A stretch of 39,698 nt of DNA from contig DXBF01000023.1 in the NCBI GenBank assembly GCA_019116705.1, forward strand, positions 1 through 39,698, given 5' to 3'. Below, in pieces: positions 6,640 through 14,056 of this stretch. Each line of letters begins with the position of its first letter. Positions within the stretch are counted from its first letter, which is position 1. This DNA is from Candidatus Gemmiger avistercoris. GTDB taxonomy: Bacteria > Bacillota > Clostridia > Oscillospirales > Ruminococcaceae. The notes under the pieces are model-generated. The model had not been told where the DNA came from, did no database searches, and saw nothing but the letters and a program-made list of their open reading frames with translations. Both the position numbers and the translations under genes were made by a program.

Positions 6640-8319
6640 ATGATCACCGTTCAGGGCAAGGGCGTTTCGGCAGGCGTCGGCATCGGGCCGCTGTATTTCT
6701 ACCGCCGCGCCACCACCGAGATCAAACGCTACACCGTAGAAGATACCGATGCGGAATGGCATCGTTTCAAGGGCGCGCAGACCGGCGCCATCGAACAGCT
6801 GGGCCAGCTGGCCGAACAGGCCCGCGCCGAGGCAGGGGACGAGGCCGCCATGCTGTTCGAGACTCACCAGATGATGGCCGAGGACCTCGACTATGAGGAA
6901 GCCATCGAGAACCTGATCACCAACGAAAAACTCAACGCCGAGGCGGCGGTCTCCGACGTGGCGGAGCAGTTCGCCGAGATGTTCGCCGCCATGGACGATA
7001 CCTACATGCAGGCCCGCGCCGCCGACGTCAAGGACGTCAGCCAGCGCATCCTGAGCATCCTGTGCGGCGTGGTGCAGGGCGGTATCGCCTCCGAAGTGCC
7101 GGTCCTGCTGGCCGCAGACGACCTGGCCCCGTCGGAGACCATCCAGCTGGACAAGAGCAAGATCCTGGGCTTCGTCACGGCGGGCGGTTCCGGCTCCAGC
7201 CACACGGCCATCCTGGCCCGCACCATGGGCATCCCGGCCATCGTCGGCCTGGGCGACGCCCTCAAGCCGGAATATGAGGGCCGTCAGGCCATCGCCGACG
7301 GCAGCACCGGCGCGCTGGTCGTCGACCCTGATGACGATACCCGCGACCGTCTGGTGAAAAAGCGGGAAGAACAGCTGCGCCTGCAGCGCCTGCTGGAGAC
7401 CCTGAAGGGCCAGGCCAACGTCACCAAGGACGGCAAGACCATCCGCATCTACTGCAACATCGGTTCCCCCGAGGACGTGCACGCCGTGCAGGTCAACGAC
7501 GGCGGCGGCATCGGCCTGTTCCGCAGCGAGTTCCTCTACCTGAACAGCAAGGACTTCCCCACGGAGGACGAACAGTTCGAGGCGTACAAGTCGGTCCTGT
7601 CCGACATGGACGGCAAGGAAGTCATCATCCGCACGCTGGATATCGGCGCGGACAAGCAGATCGGCTACTTTGACCTGCCCAAAGAGGAAAACCCCGCCAT
7701 GGGCATGCGCGCGCTGCGCATCTGCCTGACCCGGCCCGAGATCTTCCGCACCCAGCTGCGCGCTTTGTTCCGCGCGTCGGCTTTCGGCAAGCTGGGCATC
7801 ATGTTCCCCATGGTCACCAGCGTATGGGAAGTGCGGGAAGCCAAGCGCATGTGTGAAGAAGTCCGGCGCGACCTCAAGAACGAGGGCATCCCCTACGCCG
7901 AGGACGTGCAGATCGGCATTATGATCGAGACCCCGGCTGCTGCGGTCATCAGCGACCGTCTGGCCAAGGAAGTGGATTTCTTCAGCATCGGTACCAACGA
8001 CCTGACCCAGTACACCCTGGCCTGCGACCGCCAGAACAACGACCTGGGCCGTTTCTATGACCCCCATCATCTGGCGGTGCTGCGCCTGATCCAGATGGTC
8101 ACCGAGAATGCGCACAAAAACGGTATCTGGGTGGGCATCTGCGGCGAATTGGGCGCGGACCTGACGCTGACCGAGACCTTCCTGGCGCTGGGCGTGGACG
8201 AACTTTCCGTCACCCCGCGTTCGGTGCTGCCGCTGCGCAACGCCGTCCGCATGACCGACACGCGGGAGACTGCGCCCCGCATCCTGGCCGATCTGGCCGA
8301 GGATTACACGGCGCGCTGA
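6640..8319 (+). CDS. ptsI: Phosphoenolpyruvate-protein phosphotransferase (enzyme I)
   Basis: Enzyme I (559 aa) takes phosphate from PEP and hands it to HPr in the cytosol. The HPr-binding helical region is at the N-terminus. The phosphohistidine is His188 in AGGSGSSHTAILAR, followed by GIPAIVG. The PEP-binding TIM-barrel domain carries GGGIGLFRSEFLY, TLDIGADK, GIMIETPAA, FFSIGTNDLTQYT and the catalytic cysteine (about residue 501) in GICGELGAD. The residue three before the phosphohistidine is Gly, where E. coli EI has Arg. GAGGGAGG precedes the ATG. It is co-transcribed with ptsH and ends at a strong bidirectional terminator. Confidence 0.96.
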   Translation: MITVQGKGVSAGVGIGPLYFYRRATTEIKRYTVEDTDAEWHRFKGAQTGAIEQLGQLAEQARAEAGDEAAMLFETHQMMAEDLDYEEAIENLITNEKLNAEAAVSDVAEQFAEMFAAMDDTYMQARAADVKDVSQRILSILCGVVQGGIASEVPVLLAADDLAPSETIQLDKSKILGFVTAGGSGSSHTAILARTMGIPAIVGLGDALKPEYEGRQAIADGSTGALVVDPDDDTRDRLVKKREEQLRLQRLLETLKGQANVTKDGKTIRIYCNIGSPEDVHAVQVNDGGGIGLFRSEFLYLNSKDFPTEDEQFEAYKSVLSDMDGKEVIIRTLDIGADKQIGYFDLPKEENPAMGMRALRICLTRPEIFRTQLRALFRASAFGKLGIMFPMVTSVWEVREAKRMCEEVRRDLKNEGIPYAEDVQIGIMIETPAAAVISDRLAKEVDFFSIGTNDLTQYTLACDRQNNDLGRFYDPHHLAVLRLIQMVTENAHKNGIWVGICGELGADLTLTETFLALGVDELSVTPRSVLPLRNAVRMTDTRETAPRILADLAEDYTAR

Positions 8320-8357
8320 CCGCTGCGCCTCCCAAAAGGCACTTTTCTCTAGCAACA

Positions 8358-8389
8358 AAAAGGCGGAGCCCTGCGGGGCTCCGCCTTTT
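8358..8389. terminator. Bidirectional terminator between ptsI and the AAA+ operon
   Basis: Perfect 14-bp stem (8358-8371 with 8376-8389), TGCG loop. It is flanked by A-rich sequence on the left and ends in TTTT on the right, so it works for both converging transcripts. Confidence 0.9.
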
Positions 8390-8438
8390 GGCGTTGCATG
8401 TTCGTTTTGAAAACCCGGGATCTGCGCCTCTTGTGGTT

Positions 8439-10484
8439 TTATTCATCCAGTTCAAAATCGCCGGGCAGCAGCTGTTCCAGGTCGGCGCCGGGGTCGGCGA
8501 TCAGGCGGCGGGACTGGTTCAGGATGGCCTTCTCCAGCGCATTGCGCGCCATGCGGCCGTTGCCGTTGGTGGCGGCGTCCGCCTGCTGTTTGCGGTCGTA
8601 CCATTCGGTCAGGGGGGCGCGGCAGCTTTCCTCCAGCGCATAACCCTTGCTTTTGGCCAGCGAGAGCGTGATGCGGTACAGTTCTTCGCCGGTGTAATCC
8701 GGGAACTCGATCTGGTTGGGGAAGCGGCTGGCCAGGCCGGAGTTGGCGCCCAGGAACTGTTCCATCTCCCGCGAATAGCCGGCCAGGATCACCACCAGAT
8801 CCTGGCGGTGGTCCTCGATGCCCTTCACCAGCGTGTCGATGGCCTCCAGGCCGAAGCTGTCCTCGCCGCCGCGGTACAGGCTGTAGGCTTCGTCGATGAA
8901 CAGCACGCCGCCCAGGGCGCTCTGGATCACCGAGTTGGTCAGCGGCGCGGTATGGCCCACGTAGCGGCCCACCAGGTCGGCCCGGGTGACTTCCACCAGC
9001 TGGCCGCCCCGCAGCGCGCCGATGGCCTTGAGGTATTTGGCCAGGATGCGGGCAATGGTGGTCTTGCCGGTGCCGGGGTTGCCGGTAAAGATCATGTGCA
9101 TGTTCACGCCGGCTGCCGGCAGGCCCTGGGCTTTGCGGCGCTGCTGGGCCTGCACGTTGCGGGCAATGTCCCGCACAAAGTCCTTGACTTCCGCCAGCCC
9201 CACAATGGCGGAAAGCTCCGCCTCCACCGCGTCCACGTCGCCGCGGTACTGCTGGGGCAGCAGGGCCAGCAGGTCCAGTTCCTCCCCGCCCTGCACGCTC
9301 ATATACAGGCGGCCGCCGCGTGCCGTCAGCCGGGCGGGCGTGCCGTCGGCAGGGGACTGCTCACGGTCCAGCACGTACTCCGCGATGGCGCGGTATACCG
9401 TCTCGCAGTAGGCGCGCATGGCGTCCATGCCCCGGGTCTTGCCGTACTGGGCGGCCAGCAGGTCCCGCACATCGGTGCCCATGGTCAGGGCCAGGCCGCA
9501 GTGCTGACGCACCCGCTGGGCCAGTTCGTTGAGTTCCCGCGCCGCAATGGCATGGAGGGTCTCCGGCGTGAAGGGGGCCGTGCGGCAGATATCCCCGGCG
9601 ATGGCGTCTACAAAGCGGGCGCCGAAACGGTCGGCCAGCGCTTCCTCCCCCTTGGCGGAGAAAAAGACGAAATACTTGCCGCCCGCCTGCAGTTCCCCGA
9701 TGGCGCCGGGGGCCAGTGCGGTGCCCACATCCACCAGGATGCCCCGCTGCAGCACATAGCGGCTGGTCAGGGCCAGCGTCCCCTCGATGGCCAGGGTGGC
9801 CAGCATGTTCAGGTAATTGGCGGCGCAGCCCTCATAATGGTCGAAGGCCAGCACCTCGGCGTCGGAGCGCAGCGCGGCGTAGAGGTCCTGCAAGAACAGC
9901 TTTTCCTGCGCAGGGCCGGGATAAAGGGAAAGGTCCATCGTCTCAATGGCGGCGCTGCGCAGGATGCCGCGCCCGGCCAGTTCCCGCACCACGCAGTCCA
10001 GCGTGTAGTGGCGGCCGGTGCCCTCGGGGCCGCACAGCAGCATCAGGCTGCGGGTCCGGGCGCTGTCTGCCGTGCCCAGCACAAAGGGGCGGCGGAAGGC
10101 TTTGACCACCGCCGTGATGAAGGCGTCCTGCCCCAGCACCCGGGCCTTGACCGCGTCGGCCACGCCGGTGAAATCCGCGTTCTGCACCGGCGGACGGGCG
10201 GGGGAACGGTCCTGTTCCAGCAAGCCGTCCTGCTGCAGCGAACGGGTAAGCTCGCTGCTCATCTTCCGCACGTGGTCGGCGGTCTGCTGCCCGGCCTTCT
10301 GGACGGCGCCCTGGGCGGAGGCCGCGGCCTTGCGGCGTTTCTGCGCGTCGCCCAGCGCGTCCAGCTGGGCCTGCATCTGCTGGATGACCTCCTGCGCTTT
10401 GCCCGCCTGCTGCGGGTCGGAAGCATACTTGCCGCCGCCCATCAGTCCGCGGACCCAGGCGTCATACTGTTCTTCAAGACTCAT
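8439..10484 (-). CDS. Double-AAA+ ATPase, degenerate N-terminal module plus CbxX/SpoVK-type C-terminal module
   Basis: A 681-aa cytosolic protein. Residues 1-90 are Gln/Ala/Lys-rich and likely coiled coil. Residues about 115-370 form a ClpB-like AAA+ module that starts VLGQDAFITAVVKAF, but its Walker A reads GPEGTGRHYT, with the catalytic Lys replaced by Arg, and Walker B (VLAFDHYEG) is degenerate, so it probably does not hydrolyse ATP. Residues about 425-640 are an intact CbxX/CfqX/SpoVK-type AAA+ module with Walker A GNPGTGKTT (468-476), Walker B VLFIDEAYSL (527-536) and the RF-containing sensor region. CbxX-type ATPases remodel partner proteins. The start overlaps the upstream gene by 11 nt. 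The partner is probably one of the two operon neighbours; this is inference. Confidence 0.85.
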   Translation of the reverse strand: MSLEEQYDAWVRGLMGGGKYASDPQQAGKAQEVIQQMQAQLDALGDAQKRRKAAASAQGAVQKAGQQTADHVRKMSSELTRSLQQDGLLEQDRSPARPPVQNADFTGVADAVKARVLGQDAFITAVVKAFRRPFVLGTADSARTRSLMLLCGPEGTGRHYTLDCVVRELAGRGILRSAAIETMDLSLYPGPAQEKLFLQDLYAALRSDAEVLAFDHYEGCAANYLNMLATLAIEGTLALTSRYVLQRGILVDVGTALAPGAIGELQAGGKYFVFFSAKGEEALADRFGARFVDAIAGDICRTAPFTPETLHAIAARELNELAQRVRQHCGLALTMGTDVRDLLAAQYGKTRGMDAMRAYCETVYRAIAEYVLDREQSPADGTPARLTARGGRLYMSVQGGEELDLLALLPQQYRGDVDAVEAELSAIVGLAEVKDFVRDIARNVQAQQRRKAQGLPAAGVNMHMIFTGNPGTGKTTIARILAKYLKAIGALRGGQLVEVTRADLVGRYVGHTAPLTNSVIQSALGGVLFIDEAYSLYRGGEDSFGLEAIDTLVKGIEDHRQDLVVILAGYSREMEQFLGANSGLASRFPNQIEFPDYTGEELYRITLSLAKSKGYALEESCRAPLTEWYDRKQQADAATNGNGRMARNALEKAILNQSRRLIADPGADLEQLLPGDFELDE

Positions 10485-11631
10485 GCGGGGCCTCCTCTCC
10501 GGCTGCGCCGGACGTCAGTTTGACGGTGTAAAAATCCTTGGCGGTGCAGCCTGCCCGGCCGCCGCCCGCGCAGGCACAGGCACAGGCGCAGCTGGACGCG
10601 CAGGCGCAGGCACAGCTGGAATGGTGGTCCCCGCCGTCCCGCCGTCCCACGCCGCCGCCGCGGCTGGACCCGCCGCCCGGCTGGAAATTGCGGGGCGGAT
10701 CGGTGCGGCGGTAGCCCACCGGGGGCGGCATGCCCCGGGCCCTGCGGATGGTGTGCAGGCCGTTGGTGTACCAGAACCAGTCGCCGGGGTCGATGCCGCC
10801 GCCCAGCCCGCCGCCCCAGCGGGGGGTGCGGGAGGCCGCAATGGCAAAAACCGCGATGGCGAACACCAGGAATACGAAAAAGGGCCCCAGCGCGTCGGGC
10901 AGATCGCCCGGTTCGCTTTCCGCGCCGTAGTCCTCGGGGGCCATGGCCGCGTCGGGGGCAAAGGCGGCAGAGTAGGTGACGGGCACGGTCACGTGGGCCC
11001 GGGCCGCCTGCCCGTGGGCCAGCGCCCCGAAATCCCACACCAGGTAGTCGCCCTCCACCCGGGTGTTGTCGGCCAGGAACCCTTCGCCGTTGCGCCAGCG
11101 GATCTGCATGTTGCCTACGCTCAGGTCATCGAACCAGCCGGGGGTGAAAGTGAAGTTCGCCGTGCCGTCGTCATTCAATGTGAACAGATGGCTCTGATGC
11201 ACCGAAAAAGCAAACCGCACGCTGCTTTCGCCGCCGTTTTCGGCCGCTACTTCCGGCGAGTAGTAACGCCGGGCAAAGACTACCTGGGCGTAACTGCCGC
11301 CGTCGTCGGAATACTGCAGGTCGGCGATGGTGTCGGTCAGCGGGGTCAGCGAATCCACATGGGCGTTGGCCAACCCGATCTTGACCCAGGTCAGGTAATC
11401 GGTCTTGTCGCCGGCAATGACCTGCCAGTCGATGTCGTAGGTGATATCTGCCGAGCCGTCCTCACGCAGATCCACCGTCACGATGTAATCCCGGATATAG
11501 TCCATATCCCCGGGTTCGGCGTGGGGGGCCAGCGCGTCGTCTGCGGCGTGTACGGTCAGCGCCGCCGTCAGGCAGAGCAGCAGGGCGGCCAGCAGCATGG
11601 CCAGCCTGCGGCCCAAACGGATCTGTATCAT
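10474..11631 (-). CDS. Membrane protein with secreted N-terminal domain and Cys-Ala repeat tail
   Basis: A 385-aa protein resembling DUF2207-type membrane proteins; the family assignment is tentative. Order: signal peptide (1-29), extracellular beta-rich domain (about 35-225), a transmembrane span (about 247-267), then a Gly-rich, aromatic and basic region (270-335). The C-terminal tail has eight Cys between residues 340 and 362, mostly in Cys-Ala alternation, then GGGRAGC and a KDFYTV segment. With a cleaved signal peptide and one span, the tail is predicted to be cytosolic. The gene overlaps the radical SAM gene by 4 nt (ATGA) and the AAA+ gene by 11 nt. I infer that the tail is the substrate of the radical SAM/SPASM enzyme. 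Confidence 0.8.
   Translation of the reverse strand: MIQIRLGRRLAMLLAALLLCLTAALTVHAADDALAPHAEPGDMDYIRDYIVTVDLREDGSADITYDIDWQVIAGDKTDYLTWVKIGLANAHVDSLTPLTDTIADLQYSDDGGSYAQVVFARRYYSPEVAAENGGESSVRFAFSVHQSHLFTLNDDGTANFTFTPGWFDDLSVGNMQIRWRNGEGFLADNTRVEGDYLVWDFGALAHGQAARAHVTVPVTYSAAFAPDAAMAPEDYGAESEPGDLPDALGPFFVFLVFAIAVFAIAASRTPRWGGGLGGGIDPGDWFWYTNGLHTIRRARGMPPPVGYRRTDPPRNFQPGGGSSRGGGVGRRDGGDHHSSCACACASSCACACACAGGGRAGCTAKDFYTVKLTSGAAGEEAPHES
10546..10614 (-). repeat. Cys-Ala repeat-coding segment
   Basis: Codes for residues 340-362 of the membrane protein: CACACASSCACACACA, then a Gly-rich stretch and a last Cys. The Cys codons mix TGC and TGT and the Ala codons mix GCC and GCG, so selection seems to hold the amino-acid pattern, not the DNA repeat. 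Confidence 0.8.
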
Positions 11632-13016
11632 GAGCAGCCCTCCTGCAGGGGCGTAGCCCCCAGTTGACAGCGCTGCTCCATGGCGGCGCTGGTGTTGCGG
11701 ATCGCGCAGCAGTCACTGTTGTTCCAGATACGGTGCCAGGGCGTGCGCAGCAGGTTGCCCAGCCCCGGGCCGGAAAGCCAGCTCTGGCAGGGCAGCACGG
11801 TGCCGTCCGGCGCGACGGCCATGTTGGAAAGGCAGGCCCCGCAGCTGGGGATCTGGGTGAACCCGAGAGCCCGCAGCGTGGCTTCGGGCAGCCAGCCGGG
11901 GCTGGTGAACTGGATCTCCAGCCCGTGGGCGGCGGCGTATTCCATGGCCGGGCGCAGCGCGGCTTCCAGTTCGGCGGGCGTCAGCCGCTTGGCGCGGCTG
12001 GCCTCGGTGGCGGCGTTGCCGGTGGGGATCAGCCCGCTGCAGGTCAGGTAGCGCACCCCCAGTTCGTGGGCCAGCTGCACGGTGGCCAGGTAATCCCGGT
12101 TCAGGGTGCACAGCGGCGTGTTCAGGCTGACGTTCAATCCGGCAGCCAGCGCGTTTTTGATGCCGCCCAGCGTGTCGGTGTAGCCGTCCACGCCCACCAG
12201 CGCGTTGTGGATTTCAGCGTCGGCGGAATAAAAGGTGATCTGCACCGAGTCCAGGCTGGCGCTTTTCAGTTCTTTGCACAGGGCGCTGGTCAGCATACGG
12301 CCGTTGGTGTTCAGCCGGGTGACGAACCACTGGGCCGCCTGGATCAGCTTGACCAGGTCGTTGCGCAGCGTGGGTTCGCCGCCGGTGAAGGTCAGCTGGG
12401 GGATGCCGGCGCTGCGGCACTTTTCGATCACGGCCAGCCACTGGTCGGTGTCCAGTTCGGCGGTGGCCCCCAGGGGCTGGTTGGCCGCGTAACAGTGCAG
12501 GCATTTCTGGTTGCAGTGCCACGCGCCGTCCTTGCGCATGGAACTGACCAGCAGGTCCATGCGGTGGGGGGCGTTCATCCGGGCGGCATACTGGCGCAGA
12601 GAAAGCGGCTGTACCTGCAGCGGCGGGGTCTGCCCCCGGGCCACGGCGAACAGGCAGTCCAGCAGTACCTGCAGATCGCTTTCGATCTGTACAGCGGGGG
12701 TGCGGCGGTAAATGCGGCGGGTGGCGGCCGAAGCCTGGGCGATCACGGCAGACCAGGCCCCGGGAGACAGTTCCTCGCCGCTGTGGTGCTGCAGCGCTTC
12801 GATCAGGTTGGTCAGCAGGATGGCCCAGCTGATGTTCAGCGGCAGCAGGTCCTGCCCGTTGAGCAGCGCCACAAAGGGCGTGTCCCGGTCCGGGTGACGG
12901 CAGGGGATCAGGTGGATGCGCACCACGCCGGGGCCGTCGGGGTCCAGCGTCACATGCCGCACGCGGGACAGATGACCGTGCAGAAAGACGCGTTCCGCAT
13001 AGCTCAGATATTTCAT
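11628..13016 (-). CDS. Radical SAM / SPASM-domain protein, likely peptide or protein maturase
   Basis: A 462-aa radical SAM enzyme. The N-terminal 150 residues are not a radical SAM fold; residues about 50-130 might be a small recognition domain of the PqqD/RRE kind, but that is a guess from pattern. The SAM-cluster motif is C168-x3-C172-x2-C175 (HCNQKCLHCYA) and the GGEP motif is at 212-215. A C-terminal SPASM-type region starts CGACLSNMAVAPDGTVLPC (392-410), followed by GNLL, IWN and Cys 436, 437, 450 and 461, which can hold auxiliary iron-sulfur clusters. SPASM enzymes commonly modify Cys-rich peptides. It is the first gene of a coupled operon with a Cys-Ala-tailed protein, which suggests the substrate. 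GGAGGG lies 11 nt before the ATG. Confidence 0.88.
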   Translation of the reverse strand: MKYLSYAERVFLHGHLSRVRHVTLDPDGPGVVRIHLIPCRHPDRDTPFVALLNGQDLLPLNISWAILLTNLIEALQHHSGEELSPGAWSAVIAQASAATRRIYRRTPAVQIESDLQVLLDCLFAVARGQTPPLQVQPLSLRQYAARMNAPHRMDLLVSSMRKDGAWHCNQKCLHCYAANQPLGATAELDTDQWLAVIEKCRSAGIPQLTFTGGEPTLRNDLVKLIQAAQWFVTRLNTNGRMLTSALCKELKSASLDSVQITFYSADAEIHNALVGVDGYTDTLGGIKNALAAGLNVSLNTPLCTLNRDYLATVQLAHELGVRYLTCSGLIPTGNAATEASRAKRLTPAELEAALRPAMEYAAAHGLEIQFTSPGWLPEATLRALGFTQIPSCGACLSNMAVAPDGTVLPCQSWLSGPGLGNLLRTPWHRIWNNSDCCAIRNTSAAMEQRCQLGATPLQEGCS

Positions 13017-13063
13017 CGGGGAAGATCCCTCCGCATATTACAAAAATGTTTCAATTATCTGAA

Positions 13064-13092
13064 AGTATAGCATAAACAGGGAACAAATACAA
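13064..13092 (-). promoter_or_regulatory. Promoter of radical SAM operon
   Basis: Minus-strand TTGTAT (13087-13092), a 17-bp spacer and TATACT (13064-13069), about 50 nt before the start codon. Confidence 0.7.
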
Positions 13093-13124
13093 CCGGGTGG
13101 AGCAGGCCGTCCCGGCGGCGCCGA

Positions 13125-13159
13125 TACAAAACCGCCCGCCGGGGGCTCCGGCGGGCGGT
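13125..13159 (-). terminator. Terminator of prfC-yitT operon
   Basis: Perfect 12-bp GC stem (13131-13142 with 13148-13159) followed on the minus strand by TTTGTA. Confidence 0.8.
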
Positions 13160-13171
13160 AGGGGCAGGCGG

Positions 13172-14056
13172 TCAGATCGAGCGGAACCCTTTGCCGATGA
13201 TCTCGCTGCTGTTGACGATGGTGATGAAAGCATGGGGGTCGTTGAGCCGCACGAAACGGCGCAGATGCTGGGCCTGGCTGCGGGTCAGCACAGTCATCAG
13301 CACCCACTTTTCCTCGTGGGAGTAGGTACCCTTGGCGCGCTCCTCGGTGGCGGAGCGGTGCAGTTCGTTGACGATGAAATCCCGCGTCGGTCCCGGGTTG
13401 GAGGTGACTACCGTGCAGACTTTGCGCAGGTTGATGCTCTCGATGGCGCTGTCCACCACGGTGGTTTTCAGGATCATGCCCAGAATGCAGTACAGCCCGG
13501 TGGCGGGGCCGTAGAGCGCTGCGCCTGCCAGCACGATGGCCAGGTCGCTGATGAGCAGTGCGCGGCCGATCTCCAGGCTGGTGTACTTGTGCAGGATCAT
13601 GGCCACGATGTCGGTGCCGCCGGTGGACGCGCCGATGTTGAACACGATGGCGCTGCCCACTGCGGGCAGGATGACGGCGTAGCACAGTTCCAGGAACACG
13701 TCGCTGGTCAGCGGGGCGGCCAGCGGCCAGATATGCTCGCACACGCTGACGTAAAACGAAAGCGCAAAGGAGGAGTAGATCGTCCAGCCCATGGAGCGCA
13801 CGCCCAGAAAGAGGAACCCCAGCAGCACCAGCGCCGCATTGACGATCCACATAAAAAAGCCTACGTTCCACTGGGGAAACAGGGTGGACAGCACGATGGA
13901 CAGGCCCGACGTGCCGCCGAAAGCGAAATGGTTGGGGGTCTTGAACAGGGCGATGCCCACGGCGGTCGCCACAAGCCCCAGATTCAAAAGGGCAAAGAAC
14001 TTTGCGCCGTCCAGCAGGTTCTGCCGGGTGAAGCCGCGCTGCAGGTTTTTCAACAT
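13172..14056 (-). CDS. YitT family membrane protein
   Basis: A 294-aa membrane protein of the YitT family (DUF161 plus DUF2179). Five or six hydrophobic spans occupy residues 20-200, with the family's FGGTSGLSIVLS and GASTGGTDIVAMIL segments. A soluble C-terminal domain (about 215-294) ends in DPHAFITIVNSSEIIGKGF, typical of DUF2179. The function of the family is not established. A purine-rich AAGGAAGAAGG site precedes the ATG. It follows prfC by 33 nt and shares its terminator, so it is probably co-transcribed. Confidence 0.92.
   Translation of the reverse strand: MLKNLQRGFTRQNLLDGAKFFALLNLGLVATAVGIALFKTPNHFAFGGTSGLSIVLSTLFPQWNVGFFMWIVNAALVLLGFLFLGVRSMGWTIYSSFALSFYVSVCEHIWPLAAPLTSDVFLELCYAVILPAVGSAIVFNIGASTGGTDIVAMILHKYTSLEIGRALLISDLAIVLAGAALYGPATGLYCILGMILKTTVVDSAIESINLRKVCTVVTSNPGPTRDFIVNELHRSATEERAKGTYSHEEKWVLMTVLTRSQAQHLRRFVRLNDPHAFITIVNSSEIIGKGFRSI

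Follow-up and report, generated by a model that had tools for sequence, protein, structure and literature searches.

A radical S-adenosylmethionine enzyme and a Cys-Ala-tailed membrane protein as a probable enzyme-substrate pair in Candidatus Gemmiger avistercoris and its relatives

What does a radical S-adenosylmethionine (SAM) enzyme do when it is encoded beside a membrane protein that ends in alternating cysteine and alanine? This question is raised by the 39,698-nucleotide stretch of DNA analysed here (the window), contig DXBF01000023.1 of the Candidatus Gemmiger avistercoris assembly GCA_019116705.1, in which three minus-strand open reading frames encode the enzyme, the membrane protein and an AAA+ ATPase (Table 1). 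The initial annotation had described these frames as overlapping by 4 nt and 11 nt, and all three are present as described. It had also proposed that the tail is modified while the protein is membrane-anchored and that the ATPase unfolds, releases or assembles the product. Our analysis indicates that the enzyme and the membrane protein are probably an enzyme-substrate pair in which the anchored tail is modified in the cytosol, in the style of a ribosomally synthesised and post-translationally modified peptide (RiPP). The ATPase looks like a lineage-specific, optional neighbour outside the conserved system. The pair is a widespread unit and appears to be undescribed: we found no description of it in the open-licence literature, though other papers may hold one, and the tail motif CACACACA in connection with radical SAM gave no match among open-licence papers.

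The membrane protein ends in ..SSCACACASSCACACACAGGGRAGCTAKDFY.., with the eight Cys residues first reported for it. All 28 sequences compared, from 27 loci and the window, share an identical 15-residue core, CACACACAGGGRAGC, and the 28 DNA versions that encode it are all distinct. Within this 45-nt core, 3.2% of comparisons show a difference at the first codon position, 0% at the second and 51.7% at the third, and among 11 Gemmiger/Faecalibacterium-type sequences the ratio of nonsynonymous to synonymous change (pN/pS) is 0.013 for the tail, 0.318 for the ectodomain and 0.562 for the transmembrane (TM) segment and linker. Cys-Ala codon repeats can arise by slippage, and the assembly of one genome (G291) breaks within the low-complexity part, as would be expected if the tail were a low-complexity or repeat-expansion artefact. 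Given that one protein sequence is written in 28 distinct DNA versions, which vary mostly at third positions and not at second positions, chance is excluded for the tail; we reject slippage, and the probability of such an artefact is negligible. Adjoining the repeat is a fixed GGGRAGCxxK[DN]FY segment. Variants of the tail were also observed. In five loci (L066, L067, L068, L082 and L083) it ends G(R)VGCSERGYQVLHW, not GRAGCxxKDFY, and these loci have their own enzyme branch, c2. At L084 (5782-7709), two tandem Cys-Ala-tailed proteins (309 and 311 aa) lie ahead of one enzyme, the second with a Tyr within the run (CACACAYACACA).

How closely does the enzyme follow this tail? A genome search for the two, the check on which the initial annotation had staked its proposal, found them together across many families and absent together. 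The enzyme gene adjoins the tail gene in 24 of the 27 loci with a tail; in the other three (L049, L052 and L055) the sequence starts at or within ~530 bases of the tail gene start and the enzyme site is unreadable. Loci L001-L030 and L031-L040 share some species and are not summed. In L045 and L050 the enzyme lies on the strand opposite to the tail gene, indicating that the link is not that of one frozen operon. Of 61 relatives, 31 have the tail protein and the same 31 have the enzyme (in G023 the contig stops before the tail itself), and 4 of 35 genus genomes, all 85-89% complete, are without both. In 391 genomes of the class, the N-terminal domain of the enzyme was found in 10 and the tail in 12, with an overlap of 10 from 8 families (hypergeometric probability 5e-19, uncorrected for kinship). 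One of these tail matches (G289, E 7.5e-4) has no Cys-Ala run and is a chance match; all 11 real tails are accompanied by enzyme sequence, which in G417 is cut by the contig start. G291 has its enzyme on one contig and the tail end on another, and a tail-less front part after the enzyme runs off the enzyme's contig. Both genes are also present in a metagenome-assembled genome labelled Coriobacteriaceae (L044), and the tail in one labelled Spirochaetes (L049), where the enzyme position lies beyond the contig edge.

The association extends to more distant enzymes. Across 398 genomes of the phylum, the N-terminal domain alone finds 10 further distant enzymes, 8 of them with an intact Cys-Ala tail adjoining; G670 has a tail truncated at its contig end, and in G780 a run of N covers the site. 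Searching the same genomes with the tail profile gave 9 matches, namely the window's own, 6 of the 10 enzyme genomes, G453 and G458. Four enzyme-bearing genomes had no tail match at E 0.001, and in two of these (G494 and G760) the tail is present on reading; the other two are G670 and G780. The two genomes found by the tail search alone (G453, E 2e-4; G458, E 1e-3) each have an adjoining gene with radical SAM and SPASM domains. Their tail proteins have the same build and end CACACACACA(SS/GG)GGCT, roughly (CA)5 followed by a distal Cys, and the N-terminal domain of this enzyme branch, represented by only two sequences, aligns with that of the window enzyme (HHalign probability 78.6%). As a control, 30 matches from ordinary DUF2207 loci were read, with frames picked automatically (L139 is probably in a wrong frame) and enzymes sought by blastp at E 1e-5 with a five-enzyme panel; none had a Cys-Ala tail, and none had such an enzyme within flanks of ~1.5 kb. 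The ends of these control proteins are Gly/Ser-rich in 21 of 30 and not in the other 9, and two of them (L144 and L145) place 3 Cys close to the C-terminus with no Cys-Ala run. Since the enzyme travels with a near-invariant Cys-Ala tail, it very probably modifies that tail. The pairing put forward in the initial annotation is thus well supported by co-occurrence; the modification itself and its chemistry we infer.

What kind of enzyme is this? It matches the Pfam families Radical_SAM (3.7e-19) and SPASM (1.9e-07). The CxxxCxxC motif noted initially is intact (CNQKCLHC, residues 168-175) and accompanies a partial TIM barrel, in keeping with the radical SAM superfamily. The SPASM-like cysteines noted with it held in part: C392, C395, C410 and C450 are kept, but the CX2CX5C part is missing. 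A full SPASM domain carries the seven-Cys motif CX9-15GX4C..CX2CX5CX3C..C (PMC5715301). Of this the window type keeps CX9GX4C and only the last Cys of the second part, and the Pfam SPASM model passes despite the incomplete motif. Judged by sequence alone, the domain is Twitch-like, a shortened SPASM without CX2CX5CX3C. C168, C172, C175, C392, C410 and C450 occur in 27 of 27 aligned enzymes and C395 in 25, and this set would fit one predicted auxiliary cluster (Aux I) following the ligand assignments for anSME and PqqE (PMC6231123, PMC5715301). Window-type enzymes and their c2 relatives no longer have the CX2CX5C part belonging to the second cluster (Aux II). Both distant clades, c3 and c4, carry CX2CX5CX3C, with one c3 member (L109) missing its first Cys. 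C326, considered as a possible counterpart of the critical H-donor Cys of epimerases, is found in 25 of 27 enzymes and is absent from both c4 members.

The AlphaFold model of the enzyme (mb72a81472a3b; pLDDT 81, pTM 0.83) has SkfB, SuiB, anSME and CteB as its best solved structures by fold. In this model the N-terminal domain consists of strands followed by three helices, the order of elements described for the RiPP recognition element (RRE) in PMC6231123. The domain has no Pfam family match and no significant likeness to PqqD by profile; a profile of residues 1-160 (A4) picks out the tail-linked enzymes. For the radical SAM proteins, none of the best 25 NCBIfam families listed reached its cut-off. 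A plasmid collection gave no enzyme match at E 1e-40; phage and virus collections were not searched.

Might the enzyme serve something other than the tail? Cys runs bind metals, and an unmodified tail could be a metal- or Fe-S-binding or redox element, with the enzyme making a cofactor, or modifying another protein, for use together with the tail. The conservation of the tail fits binding equally well, and the best-scoring NCBIfam models for the enzyme are those of heme, pyrroloquinoline quinone (PQQ) and molybdopterin enzymes, though all lie far below their cut-offs. However, enzyme and tail are both missing in the four genus genomes, a divergent enzyme branch (G453 and G458) meets the same kind of tail, and the fold neighbours of the enzyme include peptide maturases. 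In addition, no third gene common to Gemmiger and the other loci was seen among the best 40 clusters, most of them without a family identification. This explanation is therefore improbable.

On which side of the membrane does the tail lie? By hydropathy, a hydrophobic N-terminus is present in 16 of 18 tail proteins and one TM-like segment in all 18, between residues ~194 and 277; in L050 the Cys-Ala run is flagged as hydrophobic too. Between this segment and the tail, 16 of the 17 non-Gemmiger loci L041-L057 have a zinc-ribbon-like CxxCG..C.xC, missing in L048 and in the Gemmiger types, and such a segment would suit the cytosolic side. Together, these features support the anchored tail of the initial annotation and predict that it faces the cytosol. 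The window protein scores below the cut-off for DUF2207 (PF09972; 17.3 bits vs 24.4, E 0.0059), and of its scanned relatives three matched below the cut-off and the others had no match. No NCBIfam match, TIGR04222 included, was obtained for it at E 0.1 or for four relatives at E 1e-10. Its best named matches are Gemmiger loci, and records of tail proteins are labelled Gemmiger, Faecalibacterium, Lachnospiraceae and others. Fold search gave only low TM-scores to the query (0.26-0.36) in the 50 matches listed, OST1 and M1 aminopeptidases among them, and no function is read from these.

This topology also bears on whether the product is a conventional secreted RiPP (a sactipeptide, ranthipeptide or bacteriocin), the tail being cut off, exported and active outside. 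A SPASM/Twitch enzyme with a Cys-rich C-terminal segment is a common RiPP pattern (PMC8326336), a MacB/FtsX-type ABC transporter (ATPase and 944-aa permease, Pfam) lies in the flanks of 6 of the 17 non-Gemmiger loci (L043, L045, L046, L050, L051 and L053), and L108 has an ABC ATPase downstream. Yet the candidate core, C-terminal to an ectodomain and a TM segment, lies on the predicted cytosolic side and is nearly invariant, and the 385-aa membrane protein is not a short leader-core precursor. The transporter ATPases are 96-100% identical, so the six loci form one close lineage, to which the transporter is confined: the remaining non-Gemmiger loci have none at E 1e-10, although L054 and L108 do contain ABC ATPases that are more distant. 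No peptidase was identified, though none was searched for and most neighbours had no family search. A secreted product is very improbable.

How, then, would the enzyme act on an anchored tail? A signal peptide would export the membrane protein, so that a folded ectodomain lies outside, one TM segment spans the membrane and the flexible C-terminal tail is cytosolic, as predicted from hydropathy and the model. The RRE-like domain of the enzyme would dock on the cytosolic part, probably on the GGGRAGCxxK[DN]FY segment, and 5′-deoxyadenosyl radical chemistry with one auxiliary Fe-S cluster would modify the (Cys-Ala)n run of the still-anchored protein. Once mature, the modified protein would stay membrane-bound and serve a structural or sensing role, with no peptide released. 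The strict period of two residues, the fixed GGGRAGC..K[DN]FY and the shared N-terminal domain fit such an action. When enzymes of this kind act on Cys-rich substrates they most commonly form thioethers, and links from Cys to Ala, Gly or Ser carbons are our tentative suggestion. Some other Cys oxidation or ligand-forming chemistry is a somewhat doubtful possibility, and iterative epimerisation of every second residue, by analogy with PoyD, is unlikely.

Several points weigh against modification of the anchored tail. We infer it from sequence and genomic evidence, and a metal-binding tail would also be conserved. The genomes are related, and the hypergeometric statistic overstates their independence. 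The second auxiliary cluster site of distant members is missing in window-type enzymes, so the chemistry may differ between clades. Against a PqqD profile, the N-terminal domain reached 3.2% probability, which is not significant, and its proposed recognition role therefore rests on element order; the comparison is weak because the PqqD set was an automatic selection (20 of 28 loci), with no fewer than 4 of the 20 apparently in wrong frames. Finally, the ABC transporter pair lies near the tail gene in one lineage, where a transport step is possible.

Does a known system resemble this pair? The nearest published idea, by analogy, is that of TIGR04222 proteins as substrates of MNIO (DUF692) enzymes, which is proposed and unproven (PMC12452194). 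These too are membrane proteins with a C-terminal, Cys-containing low-complexity tail and an adjoining gene for a metalloenzyme proposed to modify that tail. They differ in the MNIO enzyme, in their several TM segments and in a Ser/Gly-rich tail predicted to be periplasmic, and one third of TIGR04222 genomes are without MNIO. On the enzyme side, SkfB has an N-terminal RRE, a radical SAM barrel and a one-auxiliary-cluster Twitch domain (PMC6231123), the RRE likeness here being one of element order, and is the best PDB match of the window enzyme by fold and by profile. Its substrate is a 55-residue peptide, in contrast to the 385-residue membrane protein here, and the NCBIfam SkfB model gives 45 bits, far under its cut-off of 300. 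PoyD (of a proteusin) and EpeE are also radical SAM enzymes that act on peptide tracts, and PoyD acts on every second residue, matching the Cys-Ala period (PMC8326336). PoyD-type enzymes have no auxiliary cluster (PMC8326336), unlike the window enzyme with its predicted one. EpeE comes lower (45th) among the fold matches, and no epimerase model is among the best 25 NCBIfam families.

For the membrane protein, the DUF2207 protein SMU.243 of Streptococcus mutans is alike in its extracellular N-terminal domain and intracellular Gly/Ser-rich C-terminus (PMC10457818), but it has 633 aa and no Cys-Ala tail. Envelope proteins of the LemA and TPM families offer a further likeness. A LemA gene lies 3′ of the tail gene in L101 (Pfam; other c3 loci are alike by eye), and a TPM domain shares the frame of the tail gene itself, by Pfam in L106 and by eye only in L104 and L107. 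Neither was seen beside the window's pair. LemA and DUF2207 genes pair elsewhere (PMC12631010), and together with the c3 neighbours these pairs point to an envelope role. In L104, L106 and L107, the Cys-Ala-tailed protein and the following protein form one open frame (604-691 aa).

Taken together, a broader proposal is possible rather than probable: a general, so far undescribed radical SAM modification class in which envelope proteins of DUF2207 build, which usually end in Gly/Ser, carry instead a strictly alternating (Cys-Ala)n and one distal Cys, converted inside the cell by a dedicated enzyme to a ladder of thioethers or a strand of alternating L and D residues. The modified tail might be a rigid or metal-carrying cytosolic anchor, with the TPM/LemA tie in one clade, and four or more enzyme clades of the window's phylum would share the system. 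If true, radical SAM chemistry finishes a resident membrane protein, and not only secreted peptides, in bacteria that are common in the guts of animals. The pair is small and testable, with a near-invariant target of ~25 residues and natural enzyme variants with one versus two predicted auxiliary clusters on the same kind of tail, and it is relevant to the still unexplained function of the Gly/Ser/Cys tails that DUF2207, TPM and TIGR04222 proteins carry.

Is the third gene part of the system? The protein was initially described as a CbxX-type double AAA+ ATPase. It is related to SpoVK, EccA and CbbX, below the NCBIfam cut-offs (300.6 vs 422.95, 246 vs 466.65 and 238.5 vs 459.25 bits, respectively), and its second module is intact, but the first is degenerate, with a Walker-A-like GPEGTGRHY that has no Lys; one stretch only passes the Pfam AAA cut-off. 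A search with a fixed pattern reads GPxG(T/S)GRHY, Arg for Lys, in 8 of 11 homologues, and the first module is probably non-hydrolysing. The overlapping genes and the order enzyme-tail-ATPase in 10 of 10 loci (L031-L040) are what a three-part machine would show, in which the ATPase is obligate for extraction, release or assembly of the modified product. One of these loci, L038, belongs to Gemmiger formicilis ATCC 27749. However, 39 non-Gemmiger loci, several with short flanks, gave one weak ATPase match by tblastn at E 1e-4 (L113; 27%, residues 437-568, one AAA stretch, >4 kb from the tail gene). At E 1e-60 the ATPase is found in 33 of the 61 relatives, all in the window's genus, compared with 31 for the pair. 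G011 and G028 carry it but lack the pair, as does G017, where it lies at a contig edge; in G028 it is directly joined to prfC, 24 nt behind it. An ATPase seen among these relatives only in the window's genus and kept without the pair in two genomes leaves an obligate three-part machine unsupported and quite improbable, and we reject the ATPase as an obligate partner. The unfolding, release or assembly step proposed for it is likewise not supported, though it may act on the product in the window's genus.

Table 1. Features of the three-gene locus in the window
Feature	Position	Strand	Basis
Radical SAM enzyme, Twitch-like (partial SPASM) C-terminus, 462 aa	11628..13016	-	Pfam, model, fold search, alignment
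Enzyme N-terminal domain (residues ~1-130)	12627..13016	-	Model mb72a81472a3b
Radical SAM CxxxCxxC motif (C168, C172, C175)	12492..12515	-	Invariant in 27/27 aligned enzymes
C392-x2-C395-x9-G-x4-C410, first SPASM half	11787..11843	-	Alignment; predicted Aux I ligands with C450
C450, predicted Aux I ligand	11667-11669	-	Alignment and ligand logic from PMC5715301, PMC6231123
Bitopic membrane protein of DUF2207-like build, 385 aa (proposed substrate)	10474..11631	-	Pfam below cut-off, hydropathy, model
Signal-peptide-like N-terminus	11545..11631	-	Hydropathy
Predicted extracellular beta-rich ectodomain (residues 34-240)	10912..11532	-	Model ma0986aba143f
Transmembrane helix (residues ~246-266)	10834..10896	-	Hydropathy and model
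Cys-Ala tail CACACASSCACACACAGGGRAGCTAKDFY (residues 340-368), proposed modification site	10528..10614	-	Comparison; low-confidence (disordered) in model
AAA+ ATPase related to SpoVK/EccA/CbbX, 681 aa	8439..10484	-	NCBIfam, Pfam; same operon, separable from pair
Intact AAA domain (GNPGTGKT)	8700..9095	-	Pfam and motif
Terminator-like hairpin of upstream gene	13159-13131	-	Hairpin scan
Terminator-like hairpin 3′ of operon	8372-8360	-	Hairpin scan

Terminator-like hairpins at both ends enclose the three genes; the hairpin scan gave 6 sites where shuffled sequences averaged 3.6, which is weak taken alone. The single promoter placed at 13064-13092 in the initial annotation was not recovered by a consensus scan, which found 0 sigma-70 promoter-like sites in 8200-13400, but TTGTAT-17-TATACT (8 of 12) can be made out there by eye. 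Upstream of the operon are a YitT-family gene and the RF3 gene (prfC), and beyond its other end a phosphoenolpyruvate-utilising enzyme gene (ptsI type) lies on the opposite strand (all by Pfam). At L082 (5528-7267), transposase-like frames, recognised by eye, lie between the enzyme and the tail gene. In L101-L107, L109 and L110, two large addB/addA-like genes, likewise identified by eye, adjoin the distant enzyme.

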